In this document: in pieces, positions 6,147-52,686 of the stretch
How positions within the stretch are numbered: position 1 is the first letter of the stretch
How the letters are laid out: each line of letters opens with the position of its first letter
Assembly (NCBI RefSeq): GCF_032118995.1
Contig: NC_092665.1
Coordinates: 10,892,512 to 10,956,511, forward strand
Length of the DNA: 64,000 nucleotides
Origin: Asterias amurensis
Taxonomy: Eukaryota > Echinodermata > Asteroidea > Forcipulatida > Asteriidae
Reading direction: 5' to 3'
The notes under the pieces: model-generated
Seen by the model: only the letters and a program-made list of their open reading frames with translations
Told to the model about the DNA's origin: nothing
The model's database searches: none
Position numbers and translations under genes: made by a program

Positions 6147-6887
6147 CTAAAGATCAGAGAAGAAACAGTTATCTTCCTCGAGCACAACCACATCAGTCAC
6201 TTCGTGACGAGTCGCGTTGTTCAGCTGACAAACCGTCTTCCCTTGATGACCTTGCTTCATCAGCAGATTGAAGGAGCGACATCGGGGCTCTGATCGGCAC
6301 GCTTTCCCGCACAACACCACACCATCAGCCCGTAGCTCCTTCATGACGTGACCGACCAGACACTGGGACTTGATGCGACCATCGGGACCGGTCTGAAGGC
6401 AGAAAGAGTGAGGGGTGATGTCAACTTGGAGCTCACAGATAGCAAAATCAACTCGGTTGCATCTTCTGTCTGTCCATAAACCACCATTACTTTTTTTCAT
6501 AGCACCGCAATCCGTGGCAGGCTCGTTATTCTCTGGGTTATCTTCCTTCCAATTCTCATAGGTGTTAGACGCGTTCCTCAATGGACAGTTTTGCCATTCC
6601 CCAGCCTCCTGGTTGAAATAACAACCAATCCAGAGATTTTCAGTAGGCTAACTCCCGTTGAAAAACTCCAGGAACATCGACCAGATAAACGTTTGCTCTG
6701 TTTTTGAGTTCGGCACAGCTAGAGCTGCATCGTAATTGATGCAGGTATCATTTGCTTCAGTCCAGTTCATAGGTTTGGTTTTCAGAAAATAGCATGACTC
6801 GCCGTATCGCTGCCAGTCAGTAGGGCAGATAGCAGACAGAGCCGTATATGACCCAACAAGAAACAACAAAACAGCAGTGAGATACAT
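6147..6887 (-). pseudogene. secreted C-type lectin with PAN/apple-like tail, one in-frame stop
   Basis: The single-exon frame begins with a hydrophobic signal peptide (MYLTAVLLFLVGSYTALSA). It continues as a C-type lectin domain: CPTDWQRYGESCYF, an EAND..C helix, then GLWTDRRCN and FAICEL. After this come about 80 residues with six cysteines (SFCLQTG, CLVGHVM, VLCGKACRSEPRCRSFNLL, VCQLNN) that resemble a PAN/apple module. A TAG at 6648-6650 interrupts codon 80, but the frame stays open on both sides and the missing part between (LWIGCYF, WQNCPL) reads as normal lectin sequence. The canonical EPN/QPD calcium-sugar motif is not seen (NEPATD stands in its place), so sugar binding is uncertain. 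The start ATG is at 6887. It may be a young pseudogene, a null allele or a sequencing error; readthrough is less likely. Confidence 0.75.
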
Positions 6888-11262: not shown

Positions 11263-14200
11263 TTACACACATTTGACTTCGCCACTGGTTTTCTGGTTTA
11301 TCCAGTCACAATAGTTTGATATCTTGGTGTAGACTCCAGGTTGCCCGACCTGTGCGCAGCTCCTACCCCAGCTAATAATACCGTCGAGCAGTACACCATC
11401 ATGGTGGGAATCGGGTGCGAAGTTACTGACGATTGGTCCACCGCTGTCACCCTATTTAAAGAAATAAAGCCAATATTTATAAAGCAAAAGTAACGAGCGC
11501 TTGTGTTTTTTCTTCTTCTTTTTTAAATACTCTGATTGCGTTTCTGACTTAGGTCAAACAAATTGTATTACACAAAAAGTGATCATGCTGAGAAGACCAC
11601 CATTAATAAAAACGATTTGGCTGAGACCATTTGGGTGAGACAAATTGACTGAAGCGAGACCAACCTCCAGCAAAACGGCGCTCTGATAACTGAGCTTACA
11701 AGAAAACTTAAGTCAATATCTTTGTCTGGTGGGGCCAACATGTATCGGTACGTTCGATATCTTCCCTGAGTCGACCCCACGTTGCTCACTCGGGTTAACC
11801 CGTGACAAGAGCTAATCGAACGACCGCACTCGCCCTTTCGTGGTGACGTCATGCACCTCGCGCACGGCCCCAAGTGACCCACTCGACACGCAGGGCACTT
11901 GGGGCTGACCAGGTGTGGCGGTTTCAACTTTCCGACGTGTTCAGTTTTCCGAATGACCAAGTACGGTTACATTACGTCATGCAACGCTTGCGCACAGCAA
12001 GCGAAAGAAGTCAATGGACCCTTCCCATGAAATATGTAATTTTCACATAGCGCGTGCGCACTAACATTTTGGTTGGCAAAATGAGTGAATATCGCGCTGT
12101 TTTGTACACGGCTAATGGCTGCGTGACGCAGGCGCAATTCGCGTCTGCTTAGTGCACAACTCTATGGCGTTTGCCAACCAACAGGGTCTGTGTGCGCATG
12201 CGTGAAGGTAGTTAGCATATTTCATGGGAAGGGTCCATTGTTATATGCTTTACTGAGTCCCGGAAAACTGAACACGGCGGAAGACTGAAACCGCCACACC
12301 GGTAAGCCCCTGGAATGACGTCAAAGCTATTCCAAAGTACCGGGGCAGACCAGGGTCAACCCAGGGAACTCATCGAACGCACCCTATGGTTAACATTGTT
12401 GTAGCTCGTGGCCAGTTTAATTGTATTGATGCAGCAACTGGCCTCGACTCGTACATTGTACTGTGTATTTACCCGGCAAGAGTCTTTAATTTCTCCTGGA
12501 GCACTAGCGCAGAACATGTTATCACTGATAACCGAGCTTCCGTATGCTATTTTACACTCTTCGTCACTGTCCTTAAAAAGAGTCACCTCTTGCAGCACAT
12601 CTGGACGTACCCAGTTGATTGCTACATTATCCAAAAAAAGAAACAGTTTAATAGATGCTAACTTTGCAGCGGGATAAAAACATGTTTTTTTTTTTTTTTT
12701 TTTACCCACATGCACCGATACGTGTAGCACTGTATACTCAGTACTTACCCGAGTTATGTGAACAAAAATCACAGGCATATTACTTGGGTGGGATTCGAAC
12801 CCACGACCTTTGCAATTCTAGGGAAGTGTCATACTAATAGGACTGGCTATAGCTATCGGGCAGTCTCGGCAACATCAGTGCATGGGTCCCAAACCTGCAC
12901 TGTAGGATGTGGAAGATTAATCCTACATAACAACGCGTACGCTCACGAGGTCAACTTAATCATTTTATTTTGAGATTGTGGATACCGATGCTGCGCTGCG
13001 CATCAGACACTGTGTATTGTGTTCGTAAAGTGCGTGATGGATTTGTCTGCTACAATCCCGGCCAAAATGCTTGGGCCACCCTTTCCTAACGTTGTATTCA
13101 ACAATTCCCTGTGCCCTTCCCATTCACATTCAAAACATTTGTCCCCCCCCCCCCGCTTGACTGTATTAAACTCAGATACAATCGGCAATTGGGAAAACAA
13201 TCGGCAATTGAAACCAACATTGAAAGGGGGCAGGGGGCCCAACGAGATATGGCCGGGGTTGTAGGTTTGTTGTTATCAAGCGTCTGCAAAAAAATCCCCT
13301 ATAGAATAAATCTCCAAAGACTCCAGTAAGATTGCTTTATGCATAAGTAAACTAACTTACGGTCAATGCTTCCCCAGCCACTAACGAGCATTTCCAATCC
13401 CGTCTTTGGCTCGCTTGAAGCGATGCTGATGGCTTGCACGTCGCTGTTGGTAGAGGCAGGTGTGTGCAGATGAAGCAAGGCGATGTCGTTATCCATTGAG
13501 TTGAAATCATATTGGCTATGTACAGTCCAAGTACCCCGGATAAACTGCTGATTCGGACCACCGTGTTGATAAATGTTATGATACCCAAGGCCAACGTAGT
13601 CTTTGGAACCATCTCCGTAAAGGCTAATTACAAAATAATAGACCGAATAAAAACAAAAACAAATAATGTACCATCGGTTTGGACCCTTTGCACCACCTTT
13701 CAGCACAGCTATATAGTTATGGGTAAATTTGAAGCGTACGAATGTATGCACTGCCTAAAACGGGTGCTGCATTGCCCCCTGACTAAAGAGTATCCAGGTA
13801 AAAATTCGGGTTTAAATCGGCATTGACGTGCGTCAAAATGCTTTGAAGTCATGGTTGAGAGTTTGAATCGCTGTACCTCAATGCTTCAACAAAGCGGCCT
13901 TACAAGTTGGAGCTCCCAACTATGACGTAACGTGAGTGATGACGTATCAGAGCTTTTCACGAATCTTTCAGAATAAAACCTAATAAGGGTATTCACAATT
14001 AAAATATTTTATCCTCATATGACTCGATTTCCTTGTTGATTGAAAACATTTAACATGAAGACGAGCAGAGTATGTTTGAAACGTCGGGACTAAACCGGCT
14101 ATTTTCAGAGCCACCACTCCTTATAAGAGATTTTACCCATGGTTGTACCCGCAAGTTTACTATTAATATTCATATTTATAGTTACTTATTCTCCACACCA

Positions 14201-20466: not shown

Positions 20467-24333
<3,867 letters not shown>

Positions 24334-25880: not shown

Positions 25881-26326
25881 AGTGAGTTTAAGTTCACAGT
25901 TACTGGGTTGTCAGCGCCGTGCAATGCTCTTAGGTACTCAAACTACTTCGATACTTATTTTTTAATAAATATAGCTTTGGGTTCCACTTTAATTGGATAG
26001 CAGAAAATTTTCTTGACGTTACTCTAGGCACCTTTAATACTGGGGTTTGAAATTGCTTATTATCTGTTGGGGAAACCTGTTCCGTATGTTTAATTTGGGG
26101 GCTGTCGAATATAGAGTGCCACCAAGAGTTTAATCTAGAAGTTATCGTTATTGTAAGATAGGTGGGTGAAGTCAAAATGTGAAATCAGTGCCCATCTTGA
26201 GTGAACGTAAAAATGTATCTTTAGGGACTGGATTGTGGTTGTAAATTAGTACTCCATGCTGACTAAACCTAGAAGGGCTAGATAATTTTTTAGAATACCG
26301 ATTTACCGAAATTAATCTCGGTGGGA
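25881..26326. other. no gene recognised
   Basis: The stretch directly upstream of the LRR relic shows no NACHT, Death-domain or other NLR exon. The breakpoint to LRR sequence lies at 26325-26327. Confidence 0.45.
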
Positions 26327-28117
26327 GGTAGTGTAACGACACTTGTTCTAAAGGATAACGATCTCCATGGTATTAAGGGGGACCAGATAACTCAAGTTTC
26401 TTCCTCGAAGGAATTGCATCTTTACGCGTGTGGTTTACAGAGTGATGATATTAGGTCAGTTTTCTCCATCGTGGCTGCTGCTGGTAGTGTAACGACACTT
26501 GTTCTAAGGGATAACGATCTCCATTGTATTAAGGGGGACCAGATAAGTCCTGTTTCTTCCTTGAAGAAATTGTATCTAGGTAAGTGTGATATACAGAGTG
26601 ATGATATTGGGTCAGTTTTCTCCATGGTGGCTGCTGCAGGTAGTGTAACGACACTTGTTCTAATGGATAACGATCTCCATGGTATTAAGGGGGACCAGAT
26701 TACTGCTGTTTCTTCCTTGAAGGAATTGCAACTTTACTCGTGTGGTTTACAGAGTGATGATGTTGGGTCAGTTTTCTCCATCGTGGCTGCTGCAGGTAGC
26801 GTAACGACACTTGTTCTAATGGATAACGATCTCCATGGTATTAAGGGGGACCAGATTACTGCTGTTTCTTCCTTGAAGGAATTGCATCTTTACGCGTGTG
26901 GTTTACAGAGTGATGATATTGGGTCAGTTTTCCCCATCGTGGCTGCTGCAGGTAGTGTAACGACACTTGTTCTAAGGGATAACGATTTCCATGGTATTAA
27001 GGGGGACCAGACTACTGCTGTTTCTTCCTTGAATGAATTGTTTCTGAACGCTTGTGGCTTAAAGAGTGATGATATTGGGTCAGTTTTCCCCATCGTGGCT
27101 GCTGCAGGTAGTGTAACGGAACTTGTTCTAATGGATAACGATCTCCATCGTATTAAGGGGGACCAGATAAGTCCTGTTTCTTCCTTGAATGAATTGCAAC
27201 TAGTGAAGTGTGATATACAGAGTGACGATGTTGGGTCAGTTTTCTCCATCGTGGCTGCTGCTGGTAGTGTAACGAGACTTGTTCTAGAGGATAACGATCT
27301 CCATGGTATTAAGGGGGACCAGATAAGTCCTGTTTCTTCCTTGAATGAATTGCAACTAGTAAAGTGTGATATACAGAGTGATGATATTGGGTCAGTTTTC
27401 TCCATCGTGGCTGCTGCTGGTAGTGTAACGACACTTGTTCTAAGGGATAACGATCTCCATGGTATTAAGGGGGACCAGACTACTGCTGTTTCTTCCTTGA
27501 AGAAATTGCATCTTTACGCGTGTGGTTAACAGAGTGATGATGTGGGGTCAGTTTTCTCCATCGTGGCTGCTGCAGTAGTGTAACGACACTTGTTCTAAAG
27601 GATAACGATCTCCATGGTATTAAGGGTGACCAGATTACTGCTGTTTCTTCCTTGAATGTTTTGTTTCTAAACGCTTGTGGCTTAAAGAGTGGTGATATTG
27701 GGTCAGTTTTCTCCATCGTGGCTGCTGCAGGTAGTGTAACGACACTTGTTCTAAAGGATTACGATCTCCATGGTATTAAGGGGTACCAGATAAATCCTGT
27801 TTCTTCCTTGAAGGAATCGCAACTAGTGAAGTGTGATATGCAGAGTGATGATATTCGTGTCTGCTGCAGGTAGTGTAACGAAACTTGTTCTAAAGGATAA
27901 CGATCTCCATGGTGCTTTGGAGACCGGGGACCAGATAGGTCCTGTTTCTTCCTTGGAGATCTTGGATTTGGCTGATTGTGGTCTGCAGAATGATGACTTC
28001 AGGGCATTTTCTCTTGCCCTGAATATGCGAATCAATGGTTCCGCTCTTTTAAGACCAACGGCCACTCACTCCAAAACTTCACATAATCCACACTCCAAAA
28101 AGGAACAAGAAGTGTAA
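26327..28117 (+). pseudogene. LRR-only relic of an NLR gene, about 11 repeat units
   Basis: The sequence starts abruptly at the first base of an LRR unit (GSVTTLVLKDND) and runs through about 11 units of 52 codons. It ends with the same C-terminal cap (GDQIGPVSSLEILDLADC, NDDFRAFSLALNM) as the intact NLR at 41211-52686. No NACHT or Death part precedes it. Decay is clear: a TTA-to-TAA change at 27527-27529 in unit 8, a one-base loss near 27575, and a loss of about 17 bases in unit 10 near 27855. The units differ from each other more than those of the intact gene, mainly at exposed beta-strand positions (HLYACG, YLGKCD, QLYSCG, FLNACG, QLVKCD). The 3' flank is duplicated downstream of the intact gene, so this is a 5'-truncated paralogue. 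Confidence 0.85.
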
Positions 28118-41210: not shown

Positions 41211-44200
41211 ATGTCCCAGCCATCTTTAAAACAGTGGTATGAAGACCGGAAGAGGTTAAGGGTCTTCTATGATCATTCCAGGGCAAAACCAGTAGAGAGG
41301 AAAAACAAAATCAAGAAGAGTAGACAGGCGGCTTTTAAGTCTGCATTAGCAGAGAGGACAAAGCCATCGGGACAGCATCAATACACCAAGACAAACACGT
41401 CAGATTCATCATTGGGCAAAGAACAATGCGGAGCACAAGCAAAAAGGTACCGTAGTGCATTCACTCAACAGTATCGAGAGTAGAGGGTATAGGCGTACTA
41501 TGGAGTTTTCATGAAGTTCGAAGTTCCACAATGCCCAAACACTACATTTCTAAGGGGACGATTGTGTTGAGACAAAAATATTTGTGTTATGATGGTGAAG
41601 TTCCTTGAGCAAAATGTTTTTCAGCTCAACTGCTTTACGCAAGTTTTTTCTGACTTTGATTTAAATTCAATTGTTAGTACGAACAAAATATCTTTATTGT
41701 CTACTAGCAGAAGTAATTGAGGTATTGTCATTTTTTAAGACATCAAATTCTAATTCTCATCTCTACAGAGACGAAGCCTCATCTTATAGAAGCAAAGACA
41801 CTTATCACATGATACAGATCTTTATCAAGACGCCCATCAACCCCAAAACCCTCTGTCTACGACTCGATCATAAAACAACCGTCTCTGACCTGAAAGACAC
41901 CATTCACAGGAAGTTGGCCATTCGTCCTGCATTGCAAAATCTGTACACAAACAACAAAAGGTTCAAGGTATGGTCTATACGTAATACTTGATTTATGAAC
42001 CATTCACCTTTGCATTTATCAATTTTTCTAAATGAATCAAAGTGGTTTGTTTTATCTCACTTCGGGGAGGGACAAAATGGGACCAAGAGTTGTTTTCACA
42101 AAGGTTACTAAATGGAAAAACAAATACTGGATGGTTACAACGACGGCTCGTATTATATCTTGAAATAAAATTATGAAAATAAAAGGTTGATCTGCGAAGA
42201 TATAGAACAAGAATGAAACCCGCACTGAAAACAACGAAAATAATCCAAGCAGAAATGTGAGAATTCAAGGACCATCGTTCATATAAGTTTTACAAAAGTT
42301 TCTTTCCCCCTTTATTTTCCCAGTTGTGTGACGCTTTGACTCTTCTTGATCTTGGCATTAAACCGGAGACAAACATTGATCTAACACTAGCAGAAGGTTT
42401 GCTTGGTGGCGCCCCAACACGTGAGTAGTCCATTTTCATGACGTGTCAGTCTTTGTGCTGTTTTTCTCCACACAGTCAAATGAAATTCGTCTTTGTTTAC
42501 ACCTTTTAATTGATTGATTATCAATAAAATGAAACTAAGGAACATTTAACCTAACGAAATCTCAAATTCAGTGACATTGTTTTGTTCAAGCTGCTTTTGA
42601 TTTTTCGTAATACTATTTGAAACAATTAGCCGAACGACTGGCAGGGTCATTTTGTGCTAGGAAGTTTGTGGGATTGTGCAGAGATAACATTCTAGAACCA
42701 ACGTTCATAAGATGGAAACAAATCTTTACATTTATACGAATTTCAATCCCTATTGATTTATTTTGTTTTTACAAAAATCTTACATTCTTGCATTCTTACA
42801 TGTAACAGTAAGATTGTTCATTAGTGTTTCATTCTCTAAAATGTTTTGGCCTAAAGCAGTAGACGAGACATTCCTACGGACTTTAGCGGTAAGCCTCGGC
42901 AAGGACTGGCAGCAACTCGCAGTCAAGCTTAAGTTCATACCAGCAGAGATTGGCAAGTTTGAACGCCTCGCTGAGAGCAACCCAGAAGAACAGGCTCATC
43001 AGATGTTAGTTTCTTGGTGGAGCAAGCAATCTGATAGTAAGGAAGAAGCGGGGGAATGGTTGAGAAGTGCATTGGCTCAAATAGGTCGTCCAGATTTAGC
43101 TGCAAAGATCCCAGGTTAGAATATGGTTGGATTATTTTTGTTTTTAAATATGAAACACCAAAAACCGTCTCTCTGTAGAGAAAAAGAAACCCGCGCGTAA
43201 TGTTAATTTTATTCTTACCTGAATACAATATTATTGATGACAAAAGAAGTCAGCGCATCATGGAAGTTAAGTCTGTTTTGGGTTTTTTTTTTTCTTCTTT
43301 AATTACCAAATATAAACATCAGGATAACAAATGAAAATTGACAACATAATATGAGGGACATATACTGATGTTGATAGGTAGGCCTATTGGTAAGGCGGTC
43401 TTGAAGTGGTGTATTTATTAGACACGAACTGAGCGCTGCTCTAATTAACCCTGATCTGCATTGCTGTTGTGTTAAGATATGGGAATAAGAGATTTAAATC
43501 TTGAACCCAATTTTTTTATTTTACTGAATATTTATATCACCAGTTGTTTCTATTTGTCGTATCACAATGAGCAGCTGACTTAACATTCTTATCAAAAGAA
43601 AGTCCATCATTAAAGGCAGTGGACACTATTGGTAACTACTCAAAATAGTGATTAGCATAAAACCTTACTTGGTAACGAGTATAATGGGGAGAGGTTGATA
43701 GTATAAAACGGTGTGAGAAACGGCTCCCTTTGAAGTGACGTAGTTTTCGAGAAAGAAGTAGTTTTCCACGAATTTTATTTCGAGACCTCAGAATTAGATT
43801 TCGAGGTCTCGAAATCAAGCATCTGAAAGCACACAACTTCATGTGACAAGGGTATTTTTTTCTTCCATTATTATCTCGCAACTTCGACGACCAATTGAGT
43901 TCAAATTTTCACAGGTTTGTTGTGTTATGCATATGTTGAGATACACCCAATGAGAAGACTAGTCTTTGACAATTACCAATAGTGTCCAGTGTCTTTAAGT
44001 TTCTTGTATTAAAGTGAACACTACACTAGATTTAATTAATGCAACAGACAGGACTGGTTTACAATAACATTTACAGGTTAATCTTACAAGAAAGATATGA
44101 ATTATGCCAGCAATACTTTGTGCCAAAATAAATTGCAGCATCATTTTATAAACACAACTTTAAGATACCTTTGTATGCGGTTGTCATTCTTCTTGTAGGT

Positions 44201-47200
44201 TATAAACCCACATCCCCAAGACCAGGTAACAAGAGAAAGTCATCTGAACATCGGTCTGATGCATCAGGAACTATTGAGAAGAAACTACGAGTCCCTGGGG
44301 CAGACAGAACTGGTTTGCCACAAACCTCAGGTAAACCTCCCACTCATGAATTGTGTCATCAATACGTTGAAACAAGTAAAATTGCGGCAGGCATGTTAAC
44401 TTATAATTAAAAATTATAAGATAAAACCCTTTGTGTGGTTGTAATTCTTCTTATATAGGTTATGTACCCACAGCCTCAAGAGCAGGTAGCAAGAGGCAGT
44501 CACCGGAACATCAGTCAACATCCGATGCATCAGGTATTGATGAGAAAAAGTTACGAGTCCCTGAGGCAGACAGGACTGATTTGCCACAAACCTCAGGTAA
44601 ACATTCCAATCTTGAACTATGTCAGGAATACGTTGAAACAAGTAAAGTTGCGGCAGGTATTTTAATTTACTTATAAGATAAAACCCTTTGTGTGGTTGTC
44701 ATTCATCTTGTAGGTTATGTACCCACATCCCCAAGAGCAGGTAGCAAGAGGCAGTCACCGGAACATCAGTCAACATCCGATGTATCAGGCATTAATGAGA
44801 TGTTAGGAGTCGTAGCTGAGAATATTGGAAAAGATTGGAAGCAACTCGGCACTTCTTTAGGCATTAAAGCTGCACAGATTGACACATATTCAATTGACGA
44901 TCCAAATGCCGTCAGAGAGCAGATCTATCAAATGCTGCGTGATTGGGTCAGGAGACAAACAAGCCGAAAGGAGGCTGAAGACGGGTTGATAGAGACGCTT
45001 GTCAAACTCGCCCGTGCTGACATTGTCCAAAAGTTACCAGGTAAGTAAAATCACACCTTGTTGCTCCTGTTTGTCTCCGGGGAACATAGTGTCGTTGCCC
45101 CTTGGCTTAACTTTACTAGTGAGAATTGTCAGCGACATCTTTCCTTCGATTCGAATTTAGTAAGCAAAACTTTATCGAATAAAATGCAGACCAGGTATAT
45201 TATTTTATTGATAGGATTGAATAAAACGACAGTTCTGGTTGCTTGTCTCCGTTAAGGTTGTGCAAACACATCCCAAGGAGCAAGTAAGATAGACGAAGTT
45301 CACTGCAAGCAACTAAAGGAACACCAGTCAATAACCGATGCATCAGGTATTGGTGAGAAGAAGTTAGGAGACCTCGCAGAGCACATTGGAAAAGATTGGA
45401 AGCGACTCGGCAATTATTTGGGTATTAAAGCTGCAAAGATTGACACATACCAACTCGATTATCCAAATGACCTCAATCAACAAGTCTTTCGGATGCTACT
45501 GGATTGGTTTAGAGGGCAACCAAACCAAGAGGCGGCTGAAGACGGACTGAAGAAAGCGCTTAAAGAAATCGGCCGTACTGACATTGTCAGAATATTAGGT
45601 ATGCATTATTTTAACAACCAGTTAAGTTTCCCTTTTGGTTTATTACTTAAAAGTTGATATAAAAAGTCCCATTCCCTTAAGGTGATCCCTCTGTTGGCGG
45701 AACGCAGATTGCACACAAAAATCCCCGGCTTCGTGGCTTCTGACTTGCACGTCCCCTGAACAAAGAGATTAACAAAATATTTAGACCGTAGGCATTTTAA
45801 GAGCTATAGATTGTTGACTATCTGCAAGTTCCACACTAGTTAATTTTCCTTGAATAACCCAGAATTGCTAAATACTTATACAGGTGAGATGGAGCTGCCC
45901 TCCAAAGCGTTGGTTGAAACTTTGGTGATTCATTACAAGGAGACGATGAAAGTGAACACACATCCTACTGTTAAGCATTTGGCTCGTGATATGGATAAAC
46001 TTTATGTAAGTTTAGAACTTTTGCAAGAAACAAACGAACTTGATAAGCCACTCATATTGCAGTCAGGTTTAGTTAAGGGAAAACATGAAACAGATCACAC
46101 AATACACATTGACATTGAAGGCGAACACGAGACCGATAAAACCCAAACAGAGTATAAGAAAATTCCTCTCAAGTCATACAAAGACATTTTAAGCTTTGAT
46201 AAGAACAGAATCTTAATCACTGCTGAAAGTGGGTATGGTAAATCAACACTTCTAAAGAAGATAGCTTATGACTGGGCTGTTTTAAAGAGTGATACACACG
46301 TGACTCAACAAAAACAAAAGTCGCCTCTGTCAAAGTATGAGCTTGTCTTTTTGTTGGAAATAAACAAAATGGACGCAAAGTTCAACATTACGGATGAAAT
46401 ATCTTCTCAAATATTGCCTCAAAACGAATTTGGAAAGAAGAGTTTTGAAAATTATATGAAACAAAACCCAGAGAAAGTTCTCATCTTTCTTGATGGAGCA
46501 GATGAAGTCTCATTTAAGACACTACAAAATGCAAACGGAGACTTCAGTGTTAACAACGTCCTCTCGTTCAAGTCGCTTAAACGCTGTAAGGTTATCGTAA
46601 CAAGTCGTCAATCTACGGCCCTTAAATTACTTGCTTGCAATCCAGATTTCACAAGAGTAAACATACTTGGGTTCGATGACAAAAATAAGAAAGAATATAT
46701 CCGCAAATACTTCAGCAACCATGATTCCCAACACCATGATCATGTATTTTCTGAAATAAATAAGTGGGAAACACTACAAAGTTTAGGGGCGATTCCTCTG
46801 TTTCTTTGGCTGATGTGTTCGTCACTAACACAGGCCGGAAGTCAACTACCTGACAGGATTACAGAACTGCTTAATAACGCAACCAGCATAATCCGTAAGC
46901 AAAAGATGGGCAAAGATTGTACATCCAATCTCCCAGAGAAAATAACCAAAAATGAGTTTAATGAGCTGATGTTTAAACTTGGGCAAGTTGCACTTGAAAG
47001 TTTGGTGTTAAAAGGCTACGCACAAAATTCCTTCGTGGTTTCAGAGCTTGGTTCAGAGGACCTTGTCAATTTGGGATGTGAAGTCGGCTTGCTGACCCGA
47101 GTTAAATTCATGCACGGTATAGAAGAGGTCGAACGCGTCCACTTCTACCACATGATATTCATGCAGTTTTGTTGTTCTGTTTACCTTTCTGGTATGGCAG

Positions 47201-50200
47201 AGTCAAATCCTGATAAGTTCAATGAGTACATGTCGCAATTGATAGACGGCGACGTAGAAAGATATGGATACTTAATCCGTTTCTGCAGCGGGAGAAACAG
47301 AAAGGCTGCAGAATGTGTCATAGAACTGACCAAAAATCACCTTTCAGCTTACAGTAAACACACTCCTGTTGAGTGTGAGAGGTATGTATGTTTACATAGG
47401 ATAATGATGCTGGCTTTGTTTGAAGCCAAGCTTGGTTCGACTGTAAAAACCCTCGCGCTGGATGAATGGGTAAGATTCCAATATGAGTTGAAAGGAGAAG
47501 ACCTCTTAGCTGCACATTATTTCATTAAAAACCTACCGGAACGATCCAGTCTTCGCCATGTTTCAGATATATCGATAGCGTGTCAAGGAACAACCGACTT
47601 AACTCTGCTAGAACAAATAATGGCTAGCACCAGGTGTGATTTATCATTACAAGTAGTTGGAGTCAATATGAACGACAAGATTCATCAACTCAAAAGCATT
47701 TCTGCATTTGTAACATCACTCACGTTAAAAGATTGTCAGTTAAGCAGTGTCTCTGTTCCTCAACTTTTCAAGTTATTTCAATCAACTACCAAAGTGAAGA
47801 AAGTGTGCTTGGTGGGAAACGACTTGCACGGTTTAAAATCAGACCACATACCTCACATTTCGTCCTTAGAGGTCTTGTTGTTGGATAGATGTAAGCTTAC
47901 GAATGGTGACATTGGGCCAGTTTTGTCCATTGTGGCTGTTGCAGGTAGTGTAACGACACTTGCTCTAAAGGATAACGATCTCCATGGTATTAAGGGGGAC
48001 CAGATAGTAGCTGTTTCTTCCTTGAAGGAAGTGCATCTATACGCGTGTGGTATACAAAGTGATGATATTGGGTCAGTTTTCTCCATCATGGCTGCTGCAG
48101 GTAGTGTAACGACACTTGCTCTAAAGGATAACGATCTCCATGGTAATAAGGGGGACCAGATAGTAGCTGTTTCTTCCTTGAAGGAAGTGCATCTATACGC
48201 GTGTGGTATACAAAGTGATGATATTGGGTCAGTTTTCTCCATCATGGCTGCTGCAGGTAGTGTAACGAAACTTGCTCTAAAGGATAACGATCTCCATGGT
48301 ATTAAGGGGGACCAGATAGTAGCTGTTTCTTCCTTGAAGGAAGTGCATCTATACGCGTGTGGTATACAAAGTGATGATATTGGGTCAGTTTTCTCCATCG
48401 TGGCTGCTGCAGGTAGTGTAACGACACTTGTTCTAAAGGATAACGATCTCCATGGTAATAAGGGGGACCAGATAACTCCAGTTTCCTCCTTGAAGGAATT
48501 GCATCTATACGCGTCCGGTATTCAGAGTGATGATATTGGGTCAGTTTTCTCCATCGTGGCTGCTGCAGGTAGTGTAACGACACTTGTTCTAAAGGATAAC
48601 GATCTCCATGGTATTAAGGGGGACCAGATAAGTCCTGTTTCTTCCTTGAAGGAATTGCATCTATACGCGTGTGGTATACAGAGTGATGATATTGGGTCAG
48701 TTTTCTCCATCGTGGCTGCTGCAGGTAGTGTAACGACACTTGTTCTAGATGATAACGATCTCCATGGTATTAAGGGGGACCAGATAACTCCTGTTTCTTC
48801 CTTGAAGGAATTGCATCTATACGCGTGTGGTATACAGAGTGATGATATTGGGTCAGTTTTCTCCATCGTGGCTGCTGCAGGTAGTGTAACGACACTTGTT
48901 CTAGATGATAACGATCTCCATGGTATTAAGGGGGACCAGATAACTCCTGTTTCTTCCTTGAAGGAATTGCATCTATACGCGTGTGGTATACAGAGTGATG
49001 ATATTGGGTCAGTTTTCTCCATCGTGGCTGCTGCAGGTAGTGTAACGACACTTGTTCTAGATGATAACGATCTCCATGGTATTAAGGGGGACCAGATAAC
49101 TCCTGTTTCTTCCTTGAAGGAAGTGCATCTATACGCGTGTGGTATACAAAGTGATGATATTGGGTCAGTTTTCTCCATCGTGGCTGCTGCAGGTAGTGTA
49201 ACGAAACTTGTTCTAAAGGATAACGATCTCCATGGTAATAAGGGGGACCAGATAACTCCAGTTTCCTCCTTGAAGGAATTGCATCTATACGCGTCCGGTA
49301 TTCAGAGTGATGATATTGGGTCAATTTTTTCCATCGTGGCTGCTGCAGGTAGTGTAACGAAACTTGTTCTAGAGGATAACTATCTCCATGGTATTAAGGG
49401 GGACCAGATAACTCCTGTTTCTTCCTTGAAGGAAGTGCATCTATACGCGTGTGGTATACATAGTGATGATATTGGGTCAGTTTTCTCCATCGTGGCTGCT
49501 GCAGGTAGTGTAACGAAACTTGTTCTAAAGGATAACGATCTCCATGGTAATAAGGGGGACCAGATAACTCCAGTTTCCTCCTTGAAGGAATTGCATCTAT
49601 ACGCGTCCGGTATTCAGAGTGATGATATTGGGTCAATTTTTTCCATCGTGGCTGCTGCAGGTAGTGTAACGAAACTTGTTCTAGAGGATAACTATCTCCA
49701 TGGTATTAAGGGGGACCAGATAACTCCTGTTTCTTCATTGAAGGAATTGAATATTTTCTCGTGTGGTATACAGAGTGATGATATTGGGTCAGTTTTCTCC
49801 ATCGTGGCTGCTGCAGGTAGTGTAACGACACTTGTTCTAGATGATAACGATCTCCATGGTATTAAGGGGGACCAGATAACTCCTGTTTCTTCCTTGAAGG
49901 AATTGCATCTATACGCGTGTGGTATACAGAGTGATGATATTGGGTCAGTTTTCTCCATCGTGGCTGCTGCAGGTAGTGTAACGACACTTGTTCTAAAGGA
50001 TAACGATCTCCATGGTATTAAGGGGGACCAGATAAGTCCTGTTTCTTCCTTGAAGGAATTGCATCTATACGCGTGTGGTATACAGAGTGATGATATTGGG
50101 TCAGTTTTCTCCATCGTGGCTGCTGCAGGTAGTGTAACGACACTTGTTCTAGATGATAACGATCTCCATGGTATTAAGGGGGACCAGATAACTCCTGTTT

Positions 50201-52686
50201 CTTCCTTGAAGGAATTGCATCTATACGCGTGTGGTATACAGAGTGATGATATTGGGTCAGTTTTCTCCATCGTGGCTGCTGCAGGTAGTGTAACGACACT
50301 TGTTCTAAAGGATAACGATCTCCATGGTATTAAGGGGGACCAGATAAGTCCTGTTTCTTCCTTGAAGGAATTGCATCTATACGCGTGTGGTATACAGAGT
50401 GATGATATTGGGTCAGTTTTCTCCATCGTGGCTGCTGCAGGTAGTGTAACGACACTTGTTCTAGATGATAACGATCTCCATGGTATTAAGGGGGACCAGA
50501 TAACTCCTGTTTCTTCCTTGAAGGAATTGCATCTATACGCGTGTGGTATACAGAGTGATGATATTGGGTCAGTTTTCTCCATCGTGGCTGCTGCAGGTAG
50601 TGTAACGACACTTGTTCTAAAGGATAACGATCTCCATGGTATTAAGGGGGACCAGATAAGTCCTGTTTCTTCCTTGAAGGAATTGCATCTATACGCGTGT
50701 GGTATACAGAGTGATGATATTGGGTCAGTTTTCTCCATCGTGGCTGCTGCAGGTAGTGTAACGACACTTGTTCTAGATGATAACAATCTCCATGGTATTA
50801 AGGGGGACCAGATAACTCCTGTTTCTTCCTTGAAGGAAGTGCATCTATACGCGTGTGGTATACATAGTGATGATATTGGGTCAGTTTTCTCCATCGTGGC
50901 TGCTGCAGGTAGTGTAACGAAACTTGTTCTAAAGGATAACGATCTCCATGGTAATAAGGGGGACCAGATAACTCCAGTTTCCTCCTTGAAGGAATTGCAT
51001 CTATACGCGTCCGGTATTCAGAGTGATGATATTGGGTCAATTTTTTCCATCGTGGCTGCTGCAGGTAGTGTAACGAAACTTGTTCTAGAGGATAACTATC
51101 TCCATGGTATTAAGGGGGACCAGATAACTCCTGTTTCTTCATTGAAGGAATTGAATATTTTCTCGTGTGGTATACAGAGTGATGATATTGGGTCAGTTTT
51201 CTCCATCGTGGCTGCTGCAGGTAGTGTAACGACACTTGTTCTAGATGATAACGATCTCCATGGTATTAAGGGGGACCAGATAACTCCTGTTTCTTCCTTG
51301 AAGGAATTGCATCTATACGCGTGTGGTATACAGAGTGATGATATTGGGTCAGTTTTCTCCATCGTGGCTGCTGCAGGTAGTGTAACGACACTTGTTCTAA
51401 AGGATAACGATCTCCATGGTATTAAGGGGGACCAGATAAGTCCTGTTTCTTCCTTGAAGGAATTGCATCTATACGCGTGTGGTATACAGAGTGATGATAT
51501 TGGGTCAGTTTTCTCCATCGTGGCTGCTGCAGGTAGTGTAACGACACTTGTTCTAGATGATAACGATCTCCATGGTATTAAGGGGGACCAGATAACTCCT
51601 GTTTCTTCCTTGAAGGAATTGCATCTATACGCGTGTGGTATACAGAGTGATGATATTGGGTCAGTTTTCTCCATCGTGGCTGCTGCAGGTAGTGTAACGA
51701 CACTTGTTCTAAAGGATAACGATCTCCATGGTATTAAGGGGGACCAGATAAGTCCTGTTTCTTCCTTGAAGGAATTGCATCTATACGCGTGTGGTATACA
51801 GAGTGATGATATTGGGTCAGTTTTCTCCATCGTGGCTGCTGCAGGTAGTGTAACGACACTTGTTCTAGATGATAACAATCTCCATGGTATTAAGGGGGAC
51901 CAGATAACTCCTGTTTCTTCCTTGAAGGAATTGCATCTATACGCGTGTGGTATACAGAGTGATGATATTGGGTCAGTTTTCTCCATCGTGGCTGCTGCAG
52001 GTAGTGTAACGACACTTGTTCTAGATGATAACGATCTCCATGGTATTAAGGGGGACCAGATAACTCCTGTTTCTTCCTTGAAGGAATTGCATCTATACGC
52101 GTGTGGTATACAGAGTGATGATATTGGGTCAGTTTTCTCCATCGTGGCTGCTGCAGGTAGTGTAACGACACTTGTTCTAAATGATAACGATCTCCATGGT
52201 ATTAAGGGGGACCAGATAACTCCTGTTTCTTCCTTGAAGGAATTGCATCTATACGCATGTGGTATACAGAGTGATGATATTGGGTCAGTTTTCTCCATCG
52301 TGGCTGCTGCAGGTAGTGTAACGACACTTGTTCTAAAGGATAACGATCTCCATGGTATTAAGGGGGACCAGATAACTCATGTTTCTTCATTGAATGAATT
52401 GAATATTGTCTCATGTGGTATACAGAGTGATGATATTGGGTCAGTTTTCTCCATCGTGGCTGCTGCTGGTAGTGTAAGGAGACTCGTTCTAAAGGATAAC
52501 GATCTCCATGGTGCTATGGAGATCGGAGACCAGATAGGTCCTGTTTCTTCCTTGGAGATCTTGGATTTGGCTGATTGTGATCTGCAGAATGATGACTTCA
52601 GGGCATTTTCTCTTGCCCTGAATATGCGAATCAATGGTTCCGCTCTTTTAAGACCAACGGCCACTTTACTCCAAAACTCCACATAA
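41211..52686 (+). CDS. NLR receptor: ubiquitin-like, three Death domains, NACHT, LRR array
   Basis: Nine exons with GT-AG edges and matching phases: 41211-41446, 41769-41967, 42324-42420, 42860-43114, 44199-44330, 44459-44596, 44714-45040, 45257-45598, 45884-52686. The model is 2842 residues. The start ATG has a strong context (GCCGCCAACATG). Order: basic tail (1-92), ubiquitin-like domain (93-174), Death 1 (about 179-262), two linker exons, Death 2 (about 379-461), Death 3 (about 493-575), NACHT (Walker A near 690-698), LRRs (1211-2842). The acceptor of exon 4 could instead be 42808/42809, adding 17 residues in frame. NLRs of this type are cytosolic sensors; Death domains recruit partners after NACHT-driven assembly. 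There is no signal peptide. The ubiquitin-like part could belong to a separate transcript, but splice phases join it well. Confidence 0.85.
41769..42420 (+). other. ubiquitin-like domain of the NLR (two exons)
   Basis: Residues 93-174 align along the whole length of ubiquitin. MIQIFIKT stands for MQIFVKT, then KTLCLRLD, SDLKDTI, LQNLYTNNK (Lys at the K48 position), ALTLLDLGIKPETNIDLTL for the TLSDYNIQKESTLHLVL part, and a closing LLGG for LRGG. The intron 41968-42323 splits the domain in phase 0 after NKRFK. The Ile44 patch residue is Tyr. After the Gly-Gly the chain continues APT into the first Death domain. Confidence 0.8.
42860..45598 (+). other. Death-domain exons and duplicated linker exons of the NLR
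   Basis: Death 1 (exon 42860-43114) has LAVSLGKDWQQLAVKL. Death 2 (44714-45040) has VAENIGKDWKQLGTSLGI. Death 3 (45257-45598) has LAEHIGKDWKRLGNYLGI. All keep the G-K-D-W core and the C-terminal LARADIV / IGRTDIV helix. Exons 44199-44330 and 44459-44596 encode only the Ser/Pro/Arg-rich linker (PTSPRPGNKRKS, PTASRAGSKRQSPE) and end before the Death fold. Their preceding introns share TTTGTGTGGTTGT(A/C)ATTC with that of exon 44714, so the three exons are tandem duplicates. All joints are in phase 1. Confidence 0.8.
43610..43998 (+). mobile_element. AAGGCAGTGGACAC MITE inside NLR intron 4
   Basis: TTAA edges lie at 43610-43613 and 43995-43998. Mirrored ends and the central hairpin are kept. It sits in the 1.1-kb intron after the Death 1 exon and does not touch the splice sites. 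Confidence 0.85.
46180..47787 (+). other. NACHT module and linker of the NLR
   Basis: The nucleotide-binding module shows Walker A ILITAESGYGKSTLL (46206-46253), Walker B VLIFLDGADE with Asp at 46492-46494, and the sensor-1-like KVIVTSRQ at about 46588-46611. LGFDDKNKKEYIRKYF and IPLFLWLMC belong to the following helical and winged-helix part. All catalytic motifs are intact, so ATP or dATP binding is expected. Around 47590-47787 the first diverged LRRs begin (VTSLTLKDCQL). Confidence 0.85.
47788..52623 (+). repeat. LRR array: 30 in-frame units, period 156 bp
   Basis: The phrase GGTAGTGTAACG starts units at 47944, 48100 and so on. The last unit starts at 52468, exactly 29 x 156 bases later, so there is no indel in 4.5 kb. 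Each unit is 52 codons and holds two ribonuclease-inhibitor-like LRRs (SVTTLVLKDNDLHG and SLKELHLYACGIQSDD). A diverged unit (47788-47943, TKVKKVCLVGNDLHG) precedes them, and unit 30 is a diverged cap. Units 11-16 and 20-25 encode identical protein and are 1404 bases (nine units) apart. Units 13-18 alternate two types (LDDND with ITP, LKDND with ISP). Confidence 0.95.

Follow-up and report, generated by a model that had tools for sequence, protein, structure and literature searches.

Does the locus at positions 41211–52686 of the window, the 64,000-nucleotide stretch of Asterias amurensis DNA analysed here, encode a single NLR with a ubiquitin-like domain (UBL) in front of its Death domains, and what might such a domain do at the front of a receptor? 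Our analysis covers this one genome at the level of DNA sequence alone. Nine exons with GT/AG sites and matching phases join into a frame of 2842 amino acids, in which a helical N-terminal exon is followed by the UBL, a Death domain, two linkers, two further Death domains, the NACHT domain and the LRRs. The features are listed below by window position.

41211..41446, + strand: exon 1, a basic N-terminal module of 78 amino acids with two predicted helices and a low-confidence tail
41769..41967, + strand: exon 2, first part of the UBL, which starts at Met93; GT/AG, phase 2 in, phase 0 out; PF00240
42324..42420, + strand: exon 3, remainder of the UBL, up to GLLGG-APT; phase 1 out
42405..42410, + strand: conserved diglycine codons, Gly173-Gly174; tail G-L-[LM]-G-G in 21/21 loci read
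42860..43114, + strand: exon 4, Death domain 1; PF00531, E 8.9e-12
44199..44330, + strand: exon 5, linker repeat 1, resembling exon 6 and the beginning of exon 7
44459..44596, + strand: exon 6, linker repeat 2, resembling exon 5
44714..45040, + strand: exon 7, linker repeat and Death domain 2; PF00531, E 2.3e-15
45257..45598, + strand: exon 8, Death domain 3; PF00531, E 1e-14
45884..52686, + strand: exon 9, NACHT NTPase and LRRs through the stop codon; PF05729, E 6.2e-18; LRR_8
47907..52512, + strand: LRR array, a 156-base unit repeated 29.5 times with 95% matches, in the NACHT frame

The junctions 41446/41769, 41967/42324 and 42420/42860, which the initial annotation had read as phase-matched, are all GT/AG, with cumulative phases of 2, 0 and 1. 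The five later introns are all phase 1, and one stop closes the joined frame, ending at 52686. Searched alone against Pfam, the Death domains give three PF00531 matches, each above the cut-off. In the joined protein the NACHT domain matches PF05729 at 65.6 bits against a cut-off of 26.7 (69.5 bits in the genome scan), and the motifs AESGYGKST (Walker A) and LIFLDGADE (Walker B) are read in exon 9. LRR_8 reaches 78.2 bits against a cut-off of 27, with residues from 47485–49401. For exon 1 no Pfam family passes its threshold, and the PDB gives nothing better than E 0.25; folded alone by single-sequence AlphaFold2 (mean pLDDT 76, pTM 0.31), the exon is predicted to form helices at residues 6–23 and 28–49.

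The gene belongs to a multi-copy family of predicted UBL-Death-NACHT-LRR receptors. Exons 1–3 recur at 11 more loci of the same clade (clade A), with a Death exon next in 10 of the 11 and a NACHT in the same fetched stretch in eight. Exon 1 is intact in 11 of the 12 clade-A loci, its frame being broken in L041, and the other ten intact copies show 86–99% amino acid identity. The number of linker repeats differs between paralogues. Across the genome we count 26 UBL loci. Within 10 kb, 20 of them are followed by a NACHT exon on the same strand and six are without a NACHT; upstream and on the opposite strand, the same distance holds no NACHT exon at any of the 26. This count takes the exon-2 type matches of two genome searches, leaving out those of exon-3 type, an apparent polyubiquitin gene on C9 (11 matches in each search), C2:17921693 (E 0.5, internal stops) and C1:14724077 (E 3e-5). 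There are 58 NACHT matches, fragments among them; as only the best candidates were scored, all genome match counts are lower bounds.

The UBL was found to recur upstream of NACHT exons in several predicted NLR lineages. Family UBLs also precede NACHTs only 27–28% identical to that of the window (two copies compared), and no Death domain was detected in the UBL copies with these NACHTs. All copies read from clades A and B have the intron inside the UBL at one and the same position. In the UBL exons of clade B no Met precedes the UBL, suggesting that reading begins in an upstream exon; a distant homologue of exon 1 lies 5' of the clade-B UBLs in L036, L051 and L052. L054 and L055, whose NACHTs fall outside the UBL clades, have no UBL in the upstream 10 kb, and for the other NACHTs outside these clades the absence of a UBL rests on the genome searches. 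Phase, selection and the 20 UBL loci just upstream of a NACHT exon support the proposal of the initial annotation that UBL, Death, linker, linker, Death, Death, NACHT and LRR lie in one gene, and the window locus is very probably a single gene of this order.

Substitution patterns show the predicted N-terminal and UBL exons to be under purifying selection. The dN/dS ratio is 0.20 in exon 1 (95% interval 0.12–0.34; 11 copies, L041 being excluded for its broken frame), 0.27 in the UBL (interval 0.12–0.61, overlapping the NACHT value; 11 copies, L049 being excluded from the bootstrap for an indel) and 0.37 over the whole of exons 2 and 3 (12 copies). Five independent pairs, a modest sample, hold 14 synonymous changes over 303 sites and 16 non-synonymous changes over 987 in the UBL. 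Death domain 2 is little constrained (dN/dS 0.88, 7 copies). In the distant copies L042 and L049, identity is 0.47–0.60 in introns 1–3 as against 0.84–0.98 in exons 1–3. The introns of several clade-A copies are near-identical too (up to 0.97), so part of the likeness within this clade comes from recent duplication or gene conversion.

The UBL spans residues 93–174 and ends in Gly173-Gly174, a diglycine of the kind at which ubiquitin-like domains are commonly cleaved or conjugated. A profile search of these residues, named beforehand as a check on the ubiquitin fold, was positive: alone, the domain matches PF00240 at E 3e-7 (30.6 bits against a cut-off of 25.4), and single ubiquitins in the PDB at E about 1e-5 to 3e-4. 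Inside a piece of 1100 amino acids the PF00240 score is 24.8 bits, slightly below the cut-off. A profile of 12 paralogous UBLs finds PDB chains of single ubiquitin with E near 1e-9, and each of the 12 aligned sequences shows PF00240 when E up to 0.1 is admitted. UBL and ubiquitin are identical at 28 of 76 aligned residues. At 14 listed positions of the ubiquitin beta-grasp core, lineages A, B and B2 have hydrophobic residues throughout, and C has them at 13 (D lies outside the alignment).

The surface of ubiquitin is not preserved in the same way. None of the four lineages aligned (A, B, B2 and C) keeps the Leu8/Ile44/His68/Val70 patch. Its positions read P/Y/D/T in lineage A, and the call at Leu8 hinges on gap placement (an Ile stands there in the PDB-ubiquitin alignment). 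We reject binding by ubiquitin readers of the Ile44 type on this ground, and the link to ubiquitin-binding proteins suggested by the initial annotation finds no support as far as the usual face of ubiquitin is concerned. Its other suggestion, a putative link to ubiquitin-removing proteases, fits the predicted tail: all 21 loci read, from lineages A, B, B2, C and D, end the UBL in G-L-[LM]-G-G. These 21 are the loci, out of 26, whose tail letters were inspected individually; the remaining five lie on C2. It is common to clades A and B, yet their UBL bodies are only 42–44% identical. Gly-Gly is followed by Ala in clade A (12/12), by Ala or Thr in B and B2, by Gly in C and by Cys or Gly in D, and never in these clades by the Lys found there in Sde2 processing. 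Directly after Gly-Gly, clade A reads AP[TAK], and B, B2, C and D have short basic runs; with these patterned residues, conservation ends less cleanly than a pure cut site would leave it.

The Gly-Gly tail in every locus read, together with the lost Ile44 patch, speaks less for docking by ubiquitin readers than for a removable N-terminal cap that, like the UBL of Sde2, would be cleaved off after Gly-Gly; we put the cap forward tentatively, at slightly below an even chance. The receptor would first exist as a precursor, UBL-GG-(Death)-NACHT-LRR. Recognising the UBL fold and the G-L-x-G-G tail, a deubiquitinase-like protease would cut after Gly-Gly, releasing the Death domains (clade A) or, in clades B and C, whatever separates UBL from NACHT, with a new N-terminus. 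Receptor assembly or turnover would hang on this cut, as activity does for Sde2. The LRRs would then sense a ligand, the NACHT would oligomerise, and the three Death domains would recruit Death-domain adaptors or caspases. Against the cap, Arg72 and Arg74 of ubiquitin, which help ubiquitin enzymes hold its tail, are replaced by Gly and by Leu or Met, and the match of the window UBL to the Sde2 UBL family PF13019 is below cut-off (19.5 against 26.4 bits). A genome profile search with PF13019 gave no match anywhere, controls included, and so carries no weight either way.

The Gly-Gly can also be a plain flexible hinge. The UBL would then stay on the receptor as an integral docking domain that binds the proteasome, p97, a kinase or an E3 through a surface other than Ile44 and controls stability or signalling, a reading that we find reasonable, if on balance improbable. 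Many docking UBLs are single-copy and N-terminal, as this one is. Sacsin, in the accessible part of its description (PMC3710099), has a UBL at its N-terminus. The purifying selection on the UBL body agrees with docking, and the basic stretch behind Gly-Gly in B, B2, C and D could extend the linker. However, docking UBLs usually retain a hydrophobic Ile44-like face and require no Gly-Gly, whereas here none of the four aligned lineages has that face and Gly-Gly stands in all loci read.

A role for the UBL as an immune modifier like ISG15, free or conjugated, is improbable; it would be encoded as the front part of the receptor or made alone from shorter transcripts. The UBL does terminate in Gly-Gly, exon 3 left unspliced runs into a stop two codons on in 11 of 12 clade-A copies, in L039 the 6.8 kb after exons 1–3 show neither a Death nor a NACHT match, and six UBL loci are without a nearby NACHT. 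However, an ordinary phase-1 GTGAGTA donor is enough to explain that stop, which we reject as a weak sign of a short UBL form; Arg72 is lost, and L039 and L044 may be mere partial copies. The same stop and the same six loci could point to a separate short gene co-duplicated upstream of the NLRs, a reading that we reject as very improbable on sequence grounds, since arrangement and strand are constant across the 20 loci, which are spread over C18, C20, C3 and three sites on C2, the exon 3 GT donor in phase 1 matches exon 4 after its AG in the 11 copies having both, and clades B and C keep the UBL paired with NACHTs distant from those of clade A.

One gene with a removable cap is the best explanation overall, and we judge its chances to be even. 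N-terminal domains control NLRs, and proteolysis controls NLRP1. If true, a Gly-Gly UBL before Death-NACHT-LRR puts a whole receptor class under direct deubiquitinase control, comparable to NLRP1, and the cap predicts one specific cut site. That NACHT lineages carry the module whether they have Death domains or not also bears on the exchange of NLR N-termini. A broader and rather unlikely proposal is that an entire class of animal NLRs are ubiquitin-fusion-like precursors, in which a dedicated UBL, common to divergent NACHT lineages whether or not they have Death domains, is removed by a deubiquitinase cut behind Gly-Gly that would arm (or limit) the receptor, the freed UBL being immune-active in its own right.

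The order Death, NACHT, LRR is common to the window gene and the NLRD proteins of sea urchin, amphioxus and sponge, as far as their accessible descriptions go. These describe no UBL at the front, whereas the window gene adds a helical exon and a Gly-Gly-tailed UBL before its Death domains; unlike NLRD, related NACHT genes here carry the UBL without a detected Death domain. We found no description of a UBL in front of Death-NACHT-LRR in the literature that could be searched.

ISG15 and FUBI have a UBL fold, Gly-Gly and then an extension. The precursors of ubiquitin, ISG15 and FUBI-eS30 share this layout with the window gene, whose UBL, in contrast to theirs, lacks the Ile44 patch and Arg72/Arg74. 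Marine-invertebrate TRADD-N/Death-like families have variable partner domains, those of the ubiquitin system included, but these expansions are of TRADD-N proteins, and the accessible part of the report describes no UBL-NACHT-LRR receptor among them (PMC8195603). Sde2, as the accessible part of its description states, is an inactive precursor whose N-terminal UBL is cut by deubiquitinases at a GG-K motif (PMC9508853). It is no immune receptor, Gly-Gly here is followed not by Lys but by Ala, Thr, Gly or Cys, and the PF13019 likeness is weak and under cut-off, but both proteins are built as an N-terminal UBL, Gly-Gly and a longer chain.

The gene lies on contig C18 of a 23-contig, 491.5-Mb genome and comprises the nine exons below. 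Every intron between them is of the GT/AG type, and the phases run 2, 0, 1 and thereafter 1 throughout.

41211-41446 (+), exon 1
41769-41967 (+), exon 2
42324-42420 (+), exon 3
42860-43114 (+), exon 4
44199-44330 (+), exon 5
44459-44596 (+), exon 6
44714-45040 (+), exon 7
45257-45598 (+), exon 8
45884-52686 (+), exon 9, encoding NACHT and the leucine-rich repeats (LRRs)

Spliced together, exons 1-9 yield an open frame of 2842 amino acids. Read from its N-terminus, Pfam assigns ubiquitin first, then three Death domains, then NACHT, with LRRs behind NACHT. The exon 1-8 coordinates and the domain order of the initial annotation are thus confirmed and extended; its stretch, 41211-45598, covers exons 1-8 and ends before the NACHT-LRR exon. 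This last exon terminates in an LRR array of 29.5 copies of a 156-base unit with 95% matches (47907-52512). The opposite strand of the array likewise carries long open frames. A second, LRR-only open frame at 26294-27529 (+), built on the 52-aa repeat of the main gene, represents a partial NLR copy or remnant. Other frames in the window include a pair that resemble each other, each with a trypsin domain and separated by about 9 kb (13299-13754 and 22046-22462, both minus strand), one with a C-type lectin and a PAN domain (6147-6647, minus) and a retroelement reverse transcriptase fragment (2122-2571, minus).

The ubiquitin-like domain (UBL; residues 93-174, exons 2 and 3) had been proposed from the sequence, and profile searches bear this out. 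Searched alone, it scores 30.6 bits against PF00240 (cut-off 25.4); inside a 1100-aa piece it falls slightly under the cut-off, at 24.8 bits. Against the PDB, the single sequence retrieves single ubiquitins at E values of about 1e-5 to 3e-4, and a 12-row paralogue profile does so at about 1e-9 to 1e-11. All 12 paralogue rows match PF00240 (E up to 0.1). In the alignment, 28 of 76 residues are identical to ubiquitin. The beta-grasp core, taken as 14 ubiquitin positions, is hydrophobic at every position in UBL clades A (that of the window gene), B and B2, and at 13 in clade C.

Whether the NLR gene includes the UBL exons was examined through genome context and copies in the same genome. The clade A query finds 12 loci, ten on C18 and one each on C20 and C3, and the clade B query contributes additional loci on C2 and C14. 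Exon 1 is intact in 11 of the 12 clade A loci, the copy at L041 being broken, and the order exon 1-2-3-Death with matching splice sites is constant in the 10 other loci having exons 1-4. A same-strand NACHT follows the UBL within 10 kb at 20 of 26 loci and within 20 kb at 21; within 10 kb, no locus has a NACHT upstream of the UBL or on the opposite strand. Conversely, 20 of 58 NACHT matches have a UBL within 10 kb. Independent UBL-NACHT places are fewer than 20, because most loci are tandem copies; they are the C18 region, C20, C3, and C2 near 4.8, 9.7 and 19.1 Mb.

Several clade A copies differ in extent. L039 holds exons 1-3 only, with no recognisable feature past exon 3 within its 6.8 kb, and L044 runs from exon 1 to Death 2, with NACHT not found in the examined stretch; these are truncated duplicates or genes for short UBL and UBL-Death proteins. 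The linker-repeat exon (exon 5/6 type) is multiplied before the Death 2 exon, with seven matches in L044 (C18:12.82 Mb) and six in L047 (C18:14.07 Mb); the window gene has two. Open frames of clade A NACHT exons on C18 range from 507 to 2404 aa, a spread that may reflect LRR copy-number change via unequal exchange and, in part, broken frames.

Selection on the exons was compared by dN/dS. Exon 1 (0.20, 95% 0.12-0.34; 11 copies) and the UBL core (0.27, 95% 0.12-0.61; 11 copies) have the lowest point values, with copy sets differing between regions and the UBL interval overlapping the value for NACHT (0.41; 8 copies). Exons 2 and 3 entire, including the stretch preceding the UBL, give 0.37 (12 copies), and Death 1, 2 and 3 give 0.55 (11 copies), 0.88 (7) and 0.39 (6). 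L042 and L049, which are distant copies, retain 0.84-0.98 identity in exons 1-3 but only 0.47-0.60 in introns 1-3. Close copies are little informative on selection, since their introns are up to 0.97 alike. The conserved exon 1 is predicted by single-sequence AlphaFold2 to form helices at residues 6-23 and 28-49 (mean pLDDT 76, pTM 0.31), with a low-confidence tail ahead of the UBL. No relatives were found in Pfam or the PDB; clades B and B2 have one.

Of the 26 UBL loci, 11 belong to clade B on C2: ten are at about 4.8-5.0 Mb, and the remaining one, B2, is at 19.1 Mb. Clade C is a single locus at C2:9.675 Mb. Eleven of these 12 loci have a NACHT no more than 10 kb downstream; at L051, a 479-aa repeat-rich frame separates it from the UBL. 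In the copies read, the UBL carries an intron at the corresponding phase-0 position. Death matches, of which the genome has at least 105, were not detected near clade B or C loci. A NACHT tree with 22 rows places clade A in a single group (100/100), distant from B and C; of the four clade B rows, three have as their closest neighbours three genes for which genome searches found no UBL nearby. The module has therefore either undergone repeated loss or been moved from one NLR lineage to another, and the tree favours neither. Death-NACHT genes lacking a UBL in their upstream 10 kb also occur (L054). On C14, lineage D comprises two UBL loci on opposite strands (15.90 and 15.92 Mb) with a PGLMGG tail and no NACHT found nearby; these may represent different proteins that employ this module.

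The tail G-L-[LM]-G-G is present in all 21 loci read, across A, B, B2, C and D, the UBL bodies of A and B being 42-44% identical. It is followed by AP[TAK] in A and by short basic stretches in the other lineages. Most ubiquitin binders use the face formed by Leu8, Ile44, His68 and Val70. This face is lost in the four aligned lineages, the assignment at Leu8 hinging on gap placement (the PDB-search alignment pairs an Ile). The initial interpretation is partly supported: for the UBL-NLR as one gene it is backed by the phases, the selection and the 20 of 26 loci, and for a link through the usual ubiquitin-binding face it lacks support.

We tentatively propose that the UBL could act as a removable cap, which a protease would detach after Gly-Gly, because this accounts for both the kept tail and the lost face. 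Against such a cap, ubiquitin Arg72 and Arg74 are replaced, and the basic stretches after Gly-Gly in B, B2, C and D blur a clean cut. A docking domain that stays on the receptor and binds a partner is somewhat less likely, as it accounts poorly for both the tail and the face. That a UBL with this tail serves as a free or conjugated modifier is improbable.

Among the open-licence PMC papers listed, no title or abstract opening shows a UBL-NLR; predicted proteins with this domain order may already be present, unremarked, in RefSeq. The literature compared includes PMC3710099, PMC8195603, PMC11508797, PMC2575513, PMC8913654 and PMC13133943. In the main text of PMC11508797, PMC2575513 (whose partner-domain tables are additional files) and PMC13133943, the term ubiquitin is absent. 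A passage on a sea cucumber counts six NLRs 'with other domains', not all of them named there (PMC8913654). A precedent for the putative cap is Sde2, whose N-terminal UBL is taken off by DUBs at GG-K, as required for Sde2 activity (PMC9508853).
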